Assembly: GCA_016938135.1 (NCBI GenBank)
Contig: JAFGVD010000042.1
Span: forward strand, 1-46,106
Length of the DNA: 46,106 bases
Origin: Coriobacteriia bacterium
GTDB lineage: Bacteria; Actinomycetota; Coriobacteriia; Anaerosomatales; Anaerosomataceae
Direction: 5' to 3'
This document shows positions 32,728-46,106 of the stretch, in pieces. The notes beneath the pieces are model-generated. The model was given only the letters and a program-made list of their open reading frames with translations. It was not told the origin of the DNA and searched no databases. Every line of letters begins with the position of its first letter. Positions within the stretch are counted from its first letter, which is position 1. The position numbers and the translations under genes were made by a program.

Positions 32728-34386
32728 CTACTCCTCACGCATGGGGATGCGCACGCCGGTTGTCTCGGCCACTTCGACCGCCTTGTCATAGCCCGCGTCC
32801 ACGTGTCGGATGATGCCCATGCCCGGGTCATTGGTGAGCACGCGGCGAGTCTTCTCGGCAGCCAGGGGCGTTCCGTCGGCGACCGTCACCTGGCCGGCGT
32901 GGAGCGAGCGGCCTATGCCCACCCCGCCGCCGTGGTGGAACGACACCCACGTGGCGCCGGACGCGACGTTGATAAGCGCGTTGAGGATCGGCCAGTCGGC
33001 AACCGCGTCGCTCGTGTCCAGCATCGACTCGGTCTCGCGATACGGGCTGGCCACGCTGCCGCAGTCCAGGTGATCACGCCCGATGACGATGGGCGCGCTG
33101 ATGCGGCCGTCGGCGACCATCTCGTTGAAGCGAGCTCCCGCGACGTCGCGCTCGCCGTAGCCCAGCCAGCAGATGCGGGAGGGCAGTCCCTGGAACGCGA
33201 CCTTCTCCTGCGCTTGCGTGATCCAGCGGCGTAAGCCTTCGTTTTCCGGGAAGAGCTCGAGGATGGCCGCGTCGGTCGCGTGGATGTCGGCTGGGTCGCC
33301 GGAGAGCGCGGCCCAGCGGAACGGGCCTTTGCCCTCGCAAAACAGCGGCCGGATGTAGGCGGGCACGAAGCCGGGGAACTCCCAGGCACGCGTGTAGCCG
33401 CCCAGCTCGGCCTCCTTGCGGATGGAGTTGCCGTAGTCGAAGACCTCGGCGCCGGCGTCTTTGAAGCCCACCATCGCCTCCACGTGGCGCGCCATGGACT
33501 CGCGGGCACGGTCGATGAACTCCTCGGGCGCACGACCGGCGTACTCGTGCCACTCGGCCACACTCACGCCGATGGGCAGATACGCGAGCGGGTCGTGCGC
33601 GGACGTCTGGTCAGTCACGATGTCTACCTCGATGCCCCGGCGCAAAAGCTCCGGCAGCACCTCAGCGCAGTTGCCTTCGAGCCCCACGGAGAGCGGCCGG
33701 CCAGCAGCCTTCGCGGCGAGCACGCGTTTCACCGCGTCGTCCAGATCGCTCGTCCACTCATCCAGATAGCGGTCGTGCACGCGACGCTCCAGCCGGGCAG
33801 CGTCCACTTCCACCACGAGCACGACGCCTTCGTTCATCGTGACGGCAAGCGGCTGCGCGCCGCCCATGCCGCCGCACCCGCCGGTGAGTGTAAGCGTCCC
33901 GCGCAGCGAGCCGCCGAAGCTCTTCTCGGCGATTGCCGCGAAGGTCTCGTACGTGCCCTGCAAGATGCCCTGCGTGCCGATGTAGATCCAGCTGCCGGCG
34001 GTCATCTGGCCGTACATCATGAGCCCCAGCGCATCCAGGCGGCGGAACTCCTCCCATGTGGCCCACTCGCCCACCAGGTTGGAGTTGGCGATAAGGACGC
34101 GCGGCGCCCACTCATGCGTCTGCATGACGCCCACCGGCTTGCCCGACTGCACGAGCATCGTCTCGTCGGCCTTGAGCGTGGTGAGCGTGCGCAACAGGGC
34201 GTCGAAGCTCCTCCAGTCGCGCGCGGCCTTCCCGGAACCGCCGTAGACGACGAGGTCATCGGGCCGCTCGGCCACCTCGGGGTCGAGGTTGTTCATCAGC
34301 ATGCGCATGGCGGCCTCTTGTGGCCACCCCTGCGCGGTCAGCTCGCTCCCGCGCGGCGCGCGGACCGGACGTGCTCCCTGGCTCAT
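32728..34386 (-). CDS. hutU: Urocanate hydratase
   Basis: A 552-residue urocanase that uses tightly bound NAD+ as an electrophile to convert urocanate to imidazolonepropionate. Diagnostic parts: [12 protein letters not shown] near residue 45, [43 protein letters not shown] for NAD binding, and [12 protein letters not shown] with the catalytic-region Cys. Length fits the family (about 550-560). GGGGGAGG precedes the ATG and the gene follows hutH by 15 bases. Confidence 0.97.
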
Positions 34387-34401
34387 CGCGATATCCTCCC
34401 C

Positions 34402-35940
34402 CTACTCCAGCTTGCCTACAGCGCTTTCTGCCGCCGAGACGACCGCGCCAGTCGTGACGAGCGTGTACGCCGCCTCGATCTCCGGTGCGAGGTGCCTGTC
34501 CGGTCCGGGTCCGGCAACATGCTCCCGTACCAATGCCCGCACAGCTTCTGTACCCGCCGCCGGCGTGAGCGGTGCGCGGAAATCCAGCGCCCGCGCAGCG
34601 GTGAGCAGCTCGATAGCCAGCACTCGCGACAGCCCATCGACACTGCGCCGCAGTTTGCGGGCAGCGCTCCAACCCATCGAAACGTGGTCTTCTTGCATCG
34701 CCGAGGACGGGATCGAGTCCACGCTGGACGGCATCGCCAGGCGCTTCATCTCACTCACGATCCCGGCGGCCGTGTACTGCGCGATCATGTGGCCCGAGTC
34801 CACACCGGGGTCGTCCGCCAGAAACGGCGGCAGTCCGTGACTGCGCGAGGTGTCTAGCATGCGATCGGTGCGTCTCTCGGCCATAGAAGCGAGGTCGGCA
34901 GCCACAATCGACAGGAAATCAAGCACGTAAGCGATAGGCGCACCGTGGAAGTTGCCGTTCGATTCAACGCGCCCGTCAGGCAGCACCACCGGGTTATCGA
35001 TCGCCGAGGAAAGCTCGCACTCGGCCACGGTCGTCGCGTGCGTGAGCGTGTCACGCACAGCGCCCGCCACCTGCGGCGCGCAACGCAGCGAGTACGCGTC
35101 TTGCACGCGCACGTCGCCCCCGCGATGCGATGCGACTATCTCCGAGCCCGCAAGCAGCTTCATGATGTTTCTTGCCGAGGCGGCCTGGCCGCACTGCGGG
35201 CGCAGCTCCTGCAGCTCCGGCGCAAAGACCCGGTCTGTGCCCAGCAACGCCTCGATGCTCATTGCGGCGGTGATGTCGGCGACCTTCGCAAGAGACCGCA
35301 TGTCCGCGATCGCGAGCACCAGCATGCCCAGCATGCCGTCGGTGCCGTTGATGAGCGCAAGCCCTTCCTTCTCCTCGAACTGAACGGGTGTCAGCCCTGC
35401 CTCGGCGAGCGCCTCTGCGGCACACAACCGACGGCCGTCCTCCATATCCACGACGCCCTCGCCCATCAGCGCAAGGGCGCAATGCGCGAGCGGCGCCAGG
35501 TCTCCGGAGCATCCCAGCGAGCCGTACTCGGGCACGCACGGCGAGATCTGCGCGCTCACCATCGCGGCATACGCGCGAGCGGTGCTCAGCCTGACGCCGG
35601 TCCTGCCCGTAGCCAGTGTGGAGAGCCTCAGCAGCATGAGAGCACGAACGACCTCGGGCTCCACGCAGTCGCCCGTCCCGGCCGCGTGCGATCGCACGAG
35701 CGAACGCTGCAGCTGGTGGCGCTTCTCGGGCTCGATGTAGGTCGTGGCCAGCGCACCAAAGCCGGTGCTGACGCCGTAGACCGGTTGCCCGGAGCCGGCA
35801 AGCCGGTCGATGTGGGTCCTGCTATCCTCTATCGCCGCCACCGCTTCGGCAGAAAGCTCCACCGTGGCATCGCCCCGCGCCACCGCGATCACATCATCGA
35901 ACGCTACCGGACCCGTCCCCACCACGACCGTTGCTCCCAT
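34402..35940 (-). CDS. hutH: Histidine ammonia-lyase
   Basis: A 512-residue enzyme that removes ammonia from L-histidine to give trans-urocanate. The MIO cofactor site is Cys144-Ser145-Gly146 in GSLGCSGDLAPLAH, where the classical tripeptide is Ala-Ser-Gly; other active-site regions YGVSTGFG, NGTDGM, DAYSLRCAPQV and QEDHVSMG are intact. The start MGATVVVG was chosen over one 14 codons earlier because GGGGGAGG lies upstream within a good distance and the family starts there. First gene of the hut operon, divergent from the hutG-like gene. Confidence 0.95.
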   Translation of the reverse strand: MGATVVVGTGPVAFDDVIAVARGDATVELSAEAVAAIEDSRTHIDRLAGSGQPVYGVSTGFGALATTYIEPEKRHQLQRSLVRSHAAGTGDCVEPEVVRALMLLRLSTLATGRTGVRLSTARAYAAMVSAQISPCVPEYGSLGCSGDLAPLAHCALALMGEGVVDMEDGRRLCAAEALAEAGLTPVQFEEKEGLALINGTDGMLGMLVLAIADMRSLAKVADITAAMSIEALLGTDRVFAPELQELRPQCGQAASARNIMKLLAGSEIVASHRGGDVRVQDAYSLRCAPQVAGAVRDTLTHATTVAECELSSAIDNPVVLPDGRVESNGNFHGAPIAYVLDFLSIVAADLASMAERRTDRMLDTSRSHGLPPFLADDPGVDSGHMIAQYTAAGIVSEMKRLAMPSSVDSIPSSAMQEDHVSMGWSAARKLRRSVDGLSRVLAIELLTAARALDFRAPLTPAAGTEAVRALVREHVAGPGPDRHLAPEIEAAYTLVTTGAVVSAAESAVGKLE

Positions 35941-36053
35941 GGGCTGTGCTGCCTCCCCCGTGCTGCGCCGCTGTTGTGGCAACTATGCGCTGTTGGTACA
36001 TACTCGATATAGCGTATACCTTCGACCGCCGTTCGAGGAAAAGGGAGTTCGCC
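35941..36053. promoter_or_regulatory. Divergent hutH / hutG control region
   Basis: This 113-base region is distinctly AT-richer at 35990-36020. On the plus strand TTGGTA (35993-35998) and TATACC (36015-36020) are 16 bases apart and could drive the hutG-like gene. GGTACATAC and GCGTATACC form a rough inverted repeat across the same stretch, a candidate operator. The hutH promoter on the other strand is not resolved. Confidence 0.4.
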
Positions 36054-36968
36054 ATGGTTGCCCCCGTGTTCCAAGACGATCCGCTGTGGCCTAGAGCCGG
36101 ACACTGGATCGAACCGGTGCCCGACGCCATGACGCACGGCGACCTGGCACTTATCGGCGTGCCCGCTCATGAGACCTCGCTCTCCCCGACCGATGCCGAT
36201 GCCACTCCGGCTGCTGTCCGAGAAGCCCTCATGCGCTACTCCACATATTCCGCTATCCGTGATGTGGACGTCTCGGCGCTGCGTGCATACGACCTGGGGG
36301 ATGTGACGGAGCCCGACGGTCCCGAAGGAGAGCAGCGCGTCCGGGAGTCCATAGCCGAAGCGGCCTGGCGCTTCCGCCTCCTGCTGGCGATAGGCGGCGA
36401 CAACTCGATCACATACCCCGTGATGCACGGACTTGTGGGCGAGGGCCTTGGCGAGTGCGGTCTCATCACGGTGGATGCCCACCACGACCTGCGCGACGGC
36501 GCCAGCAACGGCTCTCCGGTGCGGCGGCTGGTGGAAGCAGGGCTGCCTGGCTCTCACATCGTGCAGATAGGCATCGCGGATTTTGCGAACTCCGCGGCGT
36601 ACGCCACCCGTGCCCGGGAGCTGGGAATCACGGTTGTCCCGCGCGCGCAGCTGCGCGACCGCCCGCTTGAAGAGATCGCCGCCCGTGCGCTGGATACCGC
36701 CGGACACGGTGGACGTCCGGTCTTCGTCGACCTCGATGTGGACGTGTGCGACCGAGCCGCGGCTCCGGGATGTCCGGCGTCCGCTCCTGGCGGTATCTCC
36801 GCAGATGAACTGCGTCAGCTCGCCTATTTCTTTGGCCGAGACGAACGTGTTCGTGGCATCGACATCACCGAGGTGGACGCAACCGCGGATACCCCCGACG
36901 GACGCACCGTGCGCCTGGCGGCGCTACTCGTGCTGGAAGCAGCAGCCGGACTCGCAGCGCGAGCGTGA
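36054..36968 (+). CDS. hutG: Arginase-family hydrolase, probable formimidoylglutamase
   Basis: A 304-residue ureohydrolase. Metal-site motifs: AIGGDNSITYP, where the usual GGDHS His is Asn; VDAHHDLRDG; and DLDVDVCDRAAAPG. The partially altered site is compatible with formimidoylglutamase, which would release formamide and glutamate as the last step of histidine breakdown; agmatinase or guanidinobutyrase are the alternatives. The start MVAPVFQDD follows AAGGGAG by six bases. Divergence from hutH supports the hut role. No FTCD or HutF-type gene is nearby. Confidence 0.8.
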   Translation: MVAPVFQDDPLWPRAGHWIEPVPDAMTHGDLALIGVPAHETSLSPTDADATPAAVREALMRYSTYSAIRDVDVSALRAYDLGDVTEPDGPEGEQRVRESIAEAAWRFRLLLAIGGDNSITYPVMHGLVGEGLGECGLITVDAHHDLRDGASNGSPVRRLVEAGLPGSHIVQIGIADFANSAAYATRARELGITVVPRAQLRDRPLEEIAARALDTAGHGGRPVFVDLDVDVCDRAAAPGCPASAPGGISADELRQLAYFFGRDERVRGIDITEVDATADTPDGRTVRLAALLVLEAAAGLAARA

Positions 36969-42826: not shown

Positions 42827-45550
42827 TCATTCTCCCTGCGTGGCGAAGTGGGCGGCGACGTACTCTCCGTACCACGCCATCGCGGCGAGCGCTCGCACGG
42901 CTGCCACCGGCGAATAGAGAATGACCGGATCGTATCGGCCACCGCCCGGGAAGGTGGCAGCCTCGACCGGCCGTAACGGCACATTGATGATGGGCTTACC
43001 CGTGCTCTCCATGAGCCCGGTCACGCGATCGAGGAAGGCGGCCTCAGCGGGGTTGAAGTTGCCACGGCCGGTTCCACCCGGCACGCCGGCTGCCGCGGGG
43101 TCATCTGACGTCCAACCGGTGGACGGGCTACGCAGGATGCCGAGTGCGACCACGGCGTCCACCTCGTCGCTCTCGGCGAGAATCGTCAGCGCGCGGCTTG
43201 CAGCATCCGAGCCGATAGCCGTCACCAGGTCGACCGGATTGCTTCGGCACCAGTAGCCCGGCAAGAGATCGTCAAGCGCCGAGAGGACCTGCGGCTCCAT
43301 CGAGGCCAGACCGAGGTCGTTGCGGGCGAGCTCGTCCGCCGCCAGCACACCCCATCCACCGCCGAGCGTCATGACGGCCACGCGGCGACCCGACGGTAGC
43401 GGAAGCGCGCTCAAGCACAGCGCCAGATCCAGGCTCTCGTCAGGACCCGTGCGCACCAGGCAGCCCGTCTGGCGGGCAGCTGCAAGAAAGACATCGGTTG
43501 AGCCAGCCATGGCACCCGTGTGTGACGCTGCCGCGCGGCGCCCGTACTCTGTCATACCGCCTGGCAGCACCACTACGGGCTTCTTCAGGGTGATGCGGCG
43601 CATGACGTCGATGAAGCGATGGCCGTCGCCACTGCCTTCGAGATAGACGAGGGCAGCGGTGGTCTGCTCGTCGTCGGCGAGCGCATCCAGCACATCAAGC
43701 GCACTCGTACTCGCCTGGTTGCCTACCGAGACGTACTTGTCGATGCCCACGCCGCGTCGCTCGGCACGTGTGACAAGCTGCACCCCTATGTTGCCGGACT
43801 GGGAGATGATGCTCAGCCCACCGGGCTGCGGTTGCAGCTCCAGGAAGCCGACGGCGTGGAGTTGACTGTGCGTGGAGAGCAGACCCATGCAGTTGGGGCC
43901 GATGAGTGTGACGCCCGAGGCCTTGGCCGTCTTGACCAGCTCCGCCTCAGCGGCGGCTCCCTCTTCTCCCGCTTCCGAGAAGCCCGCAGCCACGACGAGC
44001 GCCGCGGGGATGCCGCGCTCACCGCACTGCTCGATGATGCCGTTCACGTGAGCCGCTCCCAGCGCCACCAGCGCCAGGTCCGGGGCGTCGGGCAGCTCCG
44101 AGATGCTACTGAAGGCGGGCAGCCCCTGCACGGTGCCGCCCCGGCCGTTCACCGGATAGATGGGACCGGCGAAGTCACCTTCGATCACGTTTCTGAGGAG
44201 CGAGCCACCCCACTTGGCGATATCGTCTGATGCACCGATGACCGCGACTGCGCGCGGCGCGAAGAGCGGCGTCAGGTCGGGGGTGGAGACTACATGCGGA
44301 CCGTGCGCTGAGGCGTTCCTCTCGGGATCCAAGATCACAAGCGCGTCAGCGGCGACCGGCGTGCTCCCCTCCACCATGAGCGGGTTCACGTCGATCTCCA
44401 TGATCGCCGGATGGTCCTCGGCGATTTGTGCGAGCACGCGGATAGCGTCTGCGAGCGCTGCGCGATCCACAGACGGCATGCCACGGAACTCGCCCAGCAG
44501 CGCGCTCGCCCTGATGCCGGAGAGCATGCCCTCGATTTCCCGGTCTTCCAGAGGCGTCACACCAAGCGAGATGTCTTTGTGGGCCTCGGCGAAGATCCCT
44601 CCGATGCCGAAGACGACGACGGGACCAAAGAGCGGATCACGTTTCATGCCGATCATGAATTCGCGATCACCCCGGACCATCCGCTCCACAAGGAGCGAGG
44701 CGTCCTGGCCCTCGGTGAGCGCCAACAGCGAGCGGGCAGCGTCGCGGACGGCCTGTTCGCCGAGGAGGTTCAAAGCGACCAAGCCGCGCTCGGTCTTGTG
44801 AGTGATGTGCGCTCCGACCGCCTTGATAGCCACAGGGCCGTCCAGCCGAAGGGCGACGGCAACGGCCTCGTCCTCGTCGCGTGCGAGACCACCCTCGGGG
44901 ACGGTGATCCCATAACCGGCGAGCAGCGCTTTCGCCTGCCCCTCGTCCAACGCGCCGAGTCCGTCAGCCACCGCTGCGGCGACGACCCCTGTTGCATGCC
45001 GTTGAGCGCCCTGCGATCGCACCTTCACCCTATTGATGAGGGACGCAGCAGCGCCCTCTCTTTCGGCCCACAGCGCAAGATCGCCCCAATCAAGCTCATG
45101 ATGTCTGGCGATCATGACTGCCTGGTCCAGCGCTTGGTTGTCGCCCCACGCAACATAACCCGCTAGCCTATCCATGACGCTCTGGGTCGGCGTGAGAATG
45201 CGTAGGCGCCCGTAACCCGTCTGGATGACGACAGCGTCCTCGTGGTCAATGGTAGTCTCACCGAGTCCGAGTGGCCCCGGAGGGAACTCGACGAAGTAGT
45301 CCGTATCTGGATGGGTGAACTCGCGTGTGCCCGGCTGGCACTGAAAGCCCAGCGGGGCCAGTACTTGGGCGATTGTCGAGTTTCGCTCACTGGTGATGAA
45401 ATCTAGATCGTGGCTCTCGTACTCATTAAGCGTGTAGATGGACACCGCTGCTCCGCCCGACAGCGTGCTCGTGACGTTCGCTGCCTCAAGCGCCTCGCTG
45501 ACCAATGTCGCCAGCTCCACAAGCGTCGTATTGCGGTTGATTCTGTCCAT
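42827..45550 (-). CDS. AbiEii-like nucleotidyltransferase domain fused to ADP-forming acyl-CoA synthetase
   Basis: A 907-residue, uninterrupted reading frame with two unrelated parts. Residues 1 to about 175 resemble a minimal/AbiEii-type nucleotidyltransferase: LSGGAAVSIYT (31-40), then SHDLDFI with Asp48 and Asp50, and a C-terminal ARHHELDWGDLALWAEREG. Residues about 197-415 form an ATP-grasp beta domain (VAIKAVGAHITHKTE, EIDVNPLMV) and about 430-900 the CoA-binding and ligase alpha domains (AVAVIGASDD, PNCMGL, SQSGNIG, ASHTGAMAG with the phosphohistidine His677). The latter converts acyl-CoA + ADP + Pi to acid + ATP. A GTG at codon 177 (45022) preceded by AGGGTGAAG could give the synthetase alone. 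The gene starts 3 bases after the HTH stop. Confidence 0.85.
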   Translation of the reverse strand: MDRINRNTTLVELATLVSEALEAANVTSTLSGGAAVSIYTLNEYESHDLDFITSERNSTIAQVLAPLGFQCQPGTREFTHPDTDYFVEFPPGPLGLGETTIDHEDAVVIQTGYGRLRILTPTQSVMDRLAGYVAWGDNQALDQAVMIARHHELDWGDLALWAEREGAAASLINRVKVRSQGAQRHATGVVAAAVADGLGALDEGQAKALLAGYGITVPEGGLARDEDEAVAVALRLDGPVAIKAVGAHITHKTERGLVALNLLGEQAVRDAARSLLALTEGQDASLLVERMVRGDREFMIGMKRDPLFGPVVVFGIGGIFAEAHKDISLGVTPLEDREIEGMLSGIRASALLGEFRGMPSVDRAALADAIRVLAQIAEDHPAIMEIDVNPLMVEGSTPVAADALVILDPERNASAHGPHVVSTPDLTPLFAPRAVAVIGASDDIAKWGGSLLRNVIEGDFAGPIYPVNGRGGTVQGLPAFSSISELPDAPDLALVALGAAHVNGIIEQCGERGIPAALVVAAGFSEAGEEGAAAEAELVKTAKASGVTLIGPNCMGLLSTHSQLHAVGFLELQPQPGGLSIISQSGNIGVQLVTRAERRGVGIDKYVSVGNQASTSALDVLDALADDEQTTAALVYLEGSGDGHRFIDVMRRITLKKPVVVLPGGMTEYGRRAAASHTGAMAGSTDVFLAAARQTGCLVRTGPDESLDLALCLSALPLPSGRRVAVMTLGGGWGVLAADELARNDLGLASMEPQVLSALDDLLPGYWCRSNPVDLVTAIGSDAASRALTILAESDEVDAVVALGILRSPSTGWTSDDPAAAGVPGGTGRGNFNPAEAAFLDRVTGLMESTGKPIINVPLRPVEAATFPGGGRYDPVILYSPVAAVRALAAMAWYGEYVAAHFATQGE

Positions 45551-45553
45551 GTG

Positions 45554-45892
45554 TCACAACCGCTTCCCAGTACGACGAGGGCGCTGCCTCTGGCGATAGT
45601 ACTTCTTGAGCGTTTCTTCGGGCGTCAGCTCAAGCTCGGCAGCCAAAAAAGCACGCAGATTGCGCACCGTCGGGTTCCGCATGTTGAACTCGAACAGGCG
45701 CGTCTTGCCGGCCAATCGGCTGACCAGCACGCCGCTCATTTCGAGCCTGCGAAGTTGCCGCTGGATGGGGCTGACGGAGACCTCATAGGTATTAGCAATC
45801 CTCAGCGCATGGCCTGAACCGTACGCCTCCAAGAACAGCAGCACTTGGACTGCCGAGCGACTGCCGAAAATACCTTCCAGAATGGGTGTCAT
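45554..45892 (-). CDS. Winged-helix (HTH) regulator of the nucleotidyltransferase module
   Basis: A 112-residue winged-helix protein: VQVLLFLEAYGSGHALRIANTYEVSVSPIQRQLRRLEMSGVLVSRLAG spans helix 1 through the wing (about residues 15-62), then a basic tail. It resembles the ArsR-like regulators usually paired with AbiEii-type nucleotidyltransferases. AGGAG lies seven bases before the ATG, and a symmetric operator overlaps its promoter, so it most likely represses the whole operon. The final residues are Arg-rich. A tRNA gene lies upstream. Confidence 0.8.
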   Translation of the reverse strand: MTPILEGIFGSRSAVQVLLFLEAYGSGHALRIANTYEVSVSPIQRQLRRLEMSGVLVSRLAGKTRLFEFNMRNPTVRNLRAFLAAELELTPEETLKKYYRQRQRPRRTGKRL

Positions 45893-45905
45893 CTCAATCT
45901 CCTGA

Positions 45906-45966
45906 ATACCTCGTTGTGGGTCAATAATACCTCATATCGAGGTCATGTAAACCCAAAGTGAGGTAT
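45906..45966 (-). promoter_or_regulatory. Promoter and doubly symmetric operator of the HTH-nucleotidyltransferase operon
   Basis: On the minus strand, -35 TTTACA (45946-45951) and -10 TATTAT (45924-45929) are separated by 16 bases, each one base from consensus. Four GAGGT/ACCTC half-sites surround it: ATACCTC at 45906 and 45927, GAGGTCAT at 45939 and GAGGTAT at 45960. The inner and outer pairs are both centred on 45936, and same-side half-sites are 21 bases apart. The inner pair lies between -35 and -10. Confidence 0.78.
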
Positions 45967-46041
45967 ATCTGCATCGCATAATCGCTCTGCTTGAGTGGAA
46001 CAGCTTCGCCCAGGCCCAGCGCCCGCGCACAAACACGCAGG

Positions 46042-46071
46042 TAGGCCCGCCTGTTTCCACAGACGGGCCTA
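46042..46071 (-). terminator. Hairpin 3' of the right-edge tRNA
   Basis: TAGGCCCG and CGGGCCTA (8 bp), one mismatched pair, then CTG/CAG around a TTTCCA loop, lie ten bases past the tRNA CCA on the minus strand. No T-run follows. Confidence 0.55.
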
Positions 46072-46080
46072 CTCAAACTT

Positions 46081-46106
46081 TGGTGCCCCCAAGGGAATTC
46101 GAATCC
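46081..46106 (-). tRNA. tRNA 3' end, partial (identity not determinable)
   Basis: Encoded CCA, discriminator A, acceptor 3' strand TGGGGGC, T-stem TCCCT, T-loop TTCGAAT and the start of the T-stem GGA read in that order on the minus strand. The anticodon lies beyond the window edge, so the amino acid is unknown. Confidence 0.8.

Follow-up and report, generated by a model that had tools for sequence, protein, structure and literature searches.

Near one end of the 46,106-nt stretch of DNA analysed here (the window, which is the entire contig C23 of a 2.13-Mb genome), a gene for a 112-residue helix-turn-helix (HTH) protein is preceded by four copies of a 5-bp half-site. The question that this locus raises is how these sites are organized, which protein reads them and what is controlled through them. 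A preliminary description placed the half-sites at 45908-45912 and 45929-45933 (ACCTC) and at 45939-45943 and 45960-45964 (GAGGT), with an inner and an outer pair sharing a centre at 45936, a 21-bp step on either side, and the inner pair flanked by TTTACA and TATTAT on the minus strand, all of which is exactly as claimed. The same description took two concentric palindromes to be the unit of organization, and in this respect it had to be revised, as the unit is better described as a 15-bp dyad repeated in tandem with a period of 21 bp, one dyad being perfect and two half-degenerate (Table 1). In O1 the outer half-site (ACCTC) is perfect and the inner one (GGGTC) is degenerate, and in O3 the outer half (GAGGT) is again perfect and the inner half degenerate. 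The shared centre, and with it the impression of a nested palindrome, arises because O1 and O3 both have perfect outer and degenerate inner halves.

Table 1. Features of the operator region and the genes behind it, in window coordinates.
Feature	Position	Strand	Description
O1	45908..45922		15-bp dyad position covering the likely start of transcription, 21 bp from O2 on the downstream side; position kept in L028
O2	45929..45943		Perfect 15-bp dyad, ACCTC-ATATC-GAGGT, within the -35/-10 spacer
O3	45950..45964		15-bp position that overlaps the -35 box, 21 bp from O2 on the upstream side
-35 box	45946..45951	-	TTTACA
-10 box	45924..45929	-	TATTAT
Ribosome-binding site	45899..45903	-	AGGAG, 6 nt before the ATG
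HTH gene	45554..45892	-	Winged-helix protein of 112 aa with an ArsR/MarR-like fold, proposed as autorepressor; start codon at 45892-45890
Recognition-helix codons	45734..45775	-	Residues 40-53; S41, P42 and Q44 co-vary with half-site letters
Nucleotidyltransferase domain	45011..45550	-	180 aa, GG32-33 and D48xD50, MenT1/ANT(2'')-like fold
Fusion ORF	42827..45550	-	907 aa; in-frame fusion of the nucleotidyltransferase and, from about aa 190, an ADP-forming acyl-CoA synthetase

The sigma-70-like promoter formed by the two boxes has a 16-nt spacer and 10/12 matches, and is the only one of its kind in 45850-46106 (shuffles gave a mean of 0.1). When the 100-nt region was put through 5,000 Markov shuffles, 0.04% of them held two 15-bp dyads at 21 bp with a score as high as that of the real sequence, and the perfect inner dyad ACCTCN5GAGGT is present in only two copies in the 2.13-Mb genome. 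An equal dyad-pair score is reached at four positions across the whole 46-kb window, which would suit a chance arrangement of four GAGGT words, and the matter is decided by the promoters of homologous genes.

A profile search of the genome collection with the HTH protein returned 76 loci, which by their record titles come from Actinobacteria/Coriobacteriia, Chlamydiae, Aminicenantes, Geobacter/Desulfuromonadales, Elusimicrobia, Chloroflexi, Cloacimonadota, Acidobacteria, Aerophobetes, Fermentibacteraceae and others. The HTH-nucleotidyltransferase pair occurs in more than 12 bacterial phyla, with the spacing of the binding sites fixed at 15-bp/21-bp. Sequence upstream of each start codon was read for 73 related genes and the window (74 promoters), and 360 combinations of dyad width and step were scanned, blind to the letters, in 42 dereplicated promoters with a pass mark of 22/30. 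Width 15 with step 21 was the best of the 360 geometries (z = 26), and step 21 was common to all of the top 15 combinations. For the 15/21 geometry, 34 of the 42 dereplicated promoters scored at least 22/30, compared with 1.6% of shuffles. Two 15-bp dyads exactly 21 bp apart are found in 61/74 promoters, the remaining 13 scoring below 22, while among 348 equally long control segments downstream of the same genes a single one shows this geometry. Dyad symmetry peaks at positions 1-4 and weakens outside them. A third dyad lies at exactly 21 bp in 7/60 arrays, and shifts of 17-20 or 22-25 gave 0-1. All six promoters found afterwards possess the 15/21 array; these are L123 and L124 from the window's family (half-site ACCAC, 30/30), L122, which is a second copy in genome G410 of the same family (TACAA, 24/30), and promoters on plasmids of Sulfurimonas (score 27), Sulfurospirillum (30, three dyads) and Leptospira (27). 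The recurrence of the geometry in the 61 homologous promoters and in these six refutes a chance arrangement, the probability of which is negligible.

A search for the GAGGT arrangement upstream of orthologous pairs, proposed in the preliminary description as a check, upheld the geometry and not the letters. Literal conservation of GAGGT was rejected; half-site letters vary by clade and include ACCTC, ACCAA, ACCAT, ACCGC, ATCTT, TACAT and GACTA. The exception is the closest relative, L028 (HTH 89% identical), which has three of the four half-sites, O2 and the outer half of O1 being kept and O3 being absent. Dyad arrays overlap a predicted promoter in 38/44 loci. In the L028-L101 promoters the distances between operator and -35 box fall into clusters of 8-10, 16-21 and 27-32 bp, roughly one helical turn apart, although this phasing is given as an observation only because the loci are clustered by clade and AT-rich dyads help to create -10 boxes.

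Were these sites read by the HTH protein, the two would be expected to vary in step. The structural model of the protein (pLDDT 90) has residues 40-53 as the predicted recognition helix, with residues 41, 42 and 44 at its N-terminal start. At 90, 75 and 65% dereplication, the strongest of all residue-base pairs is that of residue 42 and base 4, and residues 41 and 44 come next. Automatic registration went wrong for L028 and a small number of other loci, and seven loci were registered by hand in the all-pairs ranking; the covariation test was therefore repeated on automatic registers only, excluding every locus that scored below 22 as well as the window, L028 and L088. T at base 4 then accompanies P42 in 15/16 loci and other residues in 0/43 (p = 4e-13), and at 65% dereplication in 5/5 as against 0/15 (p = 6e-5), p-values that overstate independence because the loci are related by descent. 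On the same automatic registers, C at base 2 accompanies Q44 in 47/48 loci and other residues in 1/11. Sister loci differ in a like manner, since the window and L028 have P42 with ACCTC and L029 has A42 with ACCGC, while L030 has Q44 with ACCAT and L052 has A44 with TACAT. The loci found afterwards mostly follow these rules (G42 and Y44 with TACAA in L122; A42 and Q44 with ACCAC in L123 and L124; P42 and R44 with GACTA on the Leptospira plasmid). Partial deviations are seen on the plasmids of Sulfurimonas, which has T at base 4 but not P42, and Sulfurospirillum, and the subclade of L058, L094 and L097 breaks the rules.

That the element is an operator for the 112-residue HTH protein over its own promoter, with a spacing of two helical turns, is thus borne out by a spacing that is nearly invariant across phyla and by half-site letters that co-vary with recognition-helix residues. 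This strong, though indirect, comparative evidence argues that the protein binds the sites as dimers and represses its own promoter. One dimer would occupy each 15-bp dyad, and the 5-bp half-site would be read by residues 41, 42 and 44 at the N-terminal end of the helix. Two dimers on dyads 21 bp apart would lie on the same face of the DNA, probably in mutual contact, and would cover the -35/-10 spacer and the transcription start; it is proposed that RNA polymerase would thereby be shut out and the module held at a low level. In the window the array would extend to a third, weaker dyad over the -35 box. A step of two helical turns appears to favour contact between neighbouring dimers, and the fixed spacing is what suggests that the dimers may bind cooperatively.

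Alternatively, the dimers could bind the dyads independently, with the 21-bp step reflecting steric packing or phase to RNA polymerase and involving no cooperativity. Operator offsets from the -35 box that are close to multiples of a helical turn are in keeping with this possibility, so phase to the promoter may matter too, and Rv2827c of Mycobacterium tuberculosis provides a precedent in that it binds four 23-bp repeats with negative cooperativity (PMC7319586). The step between dyads, however, is 21 bp almost always while the offset from the promoter is variable, and third dyads likewise lie at exactly 21 bp, which makes independent binding rather unlikely, if still the most serious of the alternatives. 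It could also be supposed that the repeats are not a protein operator and serve instead in recombination or fold into a structure at the RNA or DNA level, given that some relatives have tRNA-like sequence near the module, which appears to be mobile. Such a role does not predict the covariation between half-site letters and residues of the HTH protein, and the dyads overlap the promoter and not the ends of the module, leaving this explanation highly improbable.

The autorepressor reading raises the question of what is controlled along with the HTH gene. A nucleotidyltransferase gene lies downstream of the HTH gene in 62/73 loci, with the repressor gene first and the nucleotidyltransferase starting at the HTH stop codon (often as an ATGA overlap) or a few bases from it; in the window the distance is 3 nt. 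The conserved residues G32, G33, D48 and D50 presumably form part of a nucleotidyltransferase active site in a polymerase-beta-type fold. The model of the domain (pLDDT 96) resembles ANT(2'')-Ia, LnuA and MenT1, with a TM score of 0.58-0.60 to the MenT1 structure 8an4_B. Sequence searches of Pfam, NCBIfam, PADLOC and the PDB returned no family above cut-off for either protein, a search of phage records with a Geobacter nucleotidyltransferase gave no match, and the literature on DUF6036 and DUF2204 held nothing relevant. The pair is present on plasmids and in three contigs of a viral collection, and its neighbours in three Actinobacteria loci include HigBA, RHH-PIN or Phd genes. In several loci the HTH gene and operator remain and the nucleotidyltransferase is broken or missing. 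Judged from these sequence comparisons, the module fits an autoregulated unit of the toxin-antitoxin type in which the nucleotidyltransferase would be the putative toxin. The end of the contig (46037-46106) resembles the 3' end of a tRNA with a hairpin, as does sequence near the module in L122, and in L123 (1109-1184) the module is close to a tRNA-Phe; these tRNA-like sequences are possible integration sites.

The preliminary description suggested that the HTH protein shuts off a metabolic operon. The fusion ORF has no stop codon between the nucleotidyltransferase (aa 1-180) and the synthetase, and behind it lie overlapping genes for HI0933-type and FAD-dependent proteins followed by two small genes. 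The HTH protein could accordingly be a dedicated regulator of an acyl-CoA synthetase/flavoprotein operon in which the enzyme would carry the nucleotidyltransferase domain as a sensor, and both the in-frame fusion and the overlapping flavoprotein genes speak for this. Elsewhere, however, the conserved partner is the nucleotidyltransferase, which in other phyla is free-standing (about 180 aa) among unrelated neighbouring genes. No second fusion of this kind was seen in 27 genomes of the family, and in most of the others the synthetase matches from about query residue 173 without a fused domain. In G410, from which L028 comes, a full module precedes this synthetase and a second one lies between it and the HI0933 gene; the synthetase thus sits upstream of the L028 operator. 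The downstream module (L028 3001-3705, the other being L122, G410:C1) has a truncated nucleotidyltransferase, and the two modules differ, one having a TACAA operator with G42/Y44 and the other an ACCTC operator with P42/Q44. The nucleotidyltransferase of the window is closer to the downstream copy (79% versus 60% identity), yet lies upstream of the synthetase, suggesting that the module moves around the synthetase gene and that metabolic control is at most a by-product of read-through. Dedicated metabolic regulation is therefore improbable; the fusion in the window looks like a local accident, and read-through into the downstream co-directional genes is possible. In G407, of the same genus (L124, L125), two contig ends each hold part of the nucleotidyltransferase, which points to a region that is either hard to assemble or rearranged. 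Further away in the window, 32728-36968 holds genes judged by eye to be for histidine degradation (urocanase-like, histidine ammonia-lyase-like and formimidoylglutamase/agmatinase-like).

It is very likely, then, that the element serves a mobile winged-helix/nucleotidyltransferase module as its autoregulatory operator. The nucleotidyltransferase would be the effector of this module, which may have a role in toxin-antitoxin function or defence. Fixed geometry, dozens of naturally occurring letter variants and two co-varying residues together allow the proposed recognition code, with residue 42 setting base 4 and residue 44 setting base 2, to be tested directly with single substitutions, and they provide a sequence signature for finding such modules and assigning repressors to operators. 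Autoregulated pairs of a repressor and a nucleotidyltransferase are already known, and in the literature searched, which covered few subscription papers, no description of this operator grammar was found.

ArsR/SmtB and MarR proteins are dimeric repressors that act at promoter dyads, and the model of the HTH protein shares their fold, with CzrA (Z 10.6) and BigR (Z 10.5) as matches. The likeness to ArsR/SmtB is in fold alone (16.4 bits to NCBIfam HTH_metalloreg against a cut-off of 55), and no family model reaches its cut-off for the HTH protein. Neither the HTH protein nor the nucleotidyltransferase belongs to any Pfam or NCBIfam family at its cut-off. In the AbiEi-AbiEii type IV toxin-antitoxin system, a repressor is likewise paired with a nucleotidyltransferase and autoregulated at promoter repeats; in Streptococcus agalactiae AbiEi binds two inverted repeats of 23 bp, 3 bp apart, with positive cooperativity (PMC7319586). 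AbiEi has two domains, whereas the 112-residue protein has a single winged-helix domain, and the sites described here are 15-bp dyads with a step of 21. The AbiE toxin belongs to DUF1814 (AbiEii, PF08843), a Pfam family that does not include the nucleotidyltransferase of the window at its gathering cut-off; the domain gave no match, and 2 of 40 members of its family matched weakly (best E 0.0047). The Rv2827c and MenAT systems of M. tuberculosis resemble the present case in having several graded repeats over the promoter of an antitoxin-nucleotidyltransferase pair, and differ in that the repeats are four in number, 23 bp long and bound with negative cooperativity; the likeness of the window's nucleotidyltransferase to MenT1 comes from the model and not from sequence. 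The logic of AbiEi and Rv2827c is the same as that of the window, while repeat length, spacing and protein families differ.

Fused winged-helix/MNT proteins have a winged helix that is a distant homologue of the HTH protein, and the HTH protein and its relatives match the winged-helix half of PADLOC PDC-M05A, a model with no curated cut-off, weakly (E 7e-7 to 7e-12). These proteins are single polypeptides of about 200 aa whose next gene looks HEPN-like by eye, whereas the module described here has two genes and another nucleotidyltransferase family. Among 27 of their promoters (L129-L157), 11 have the 15/21 array, which is the top geometry (z = 11), and others have a double dyad with a 22-bp step. 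The grammar may therefore belong to a superfamily. The odds appear evenly balanced that split and fused winged-helix/nucleotidyltransferase modules form one superfamily with a common 15-bp/21(-22)-bp grammar, in which half-site letters are exchangeable through a recognition-helix code; if so, paralogous modules within one genome, such as the two in G410, would stay insulated from each other.
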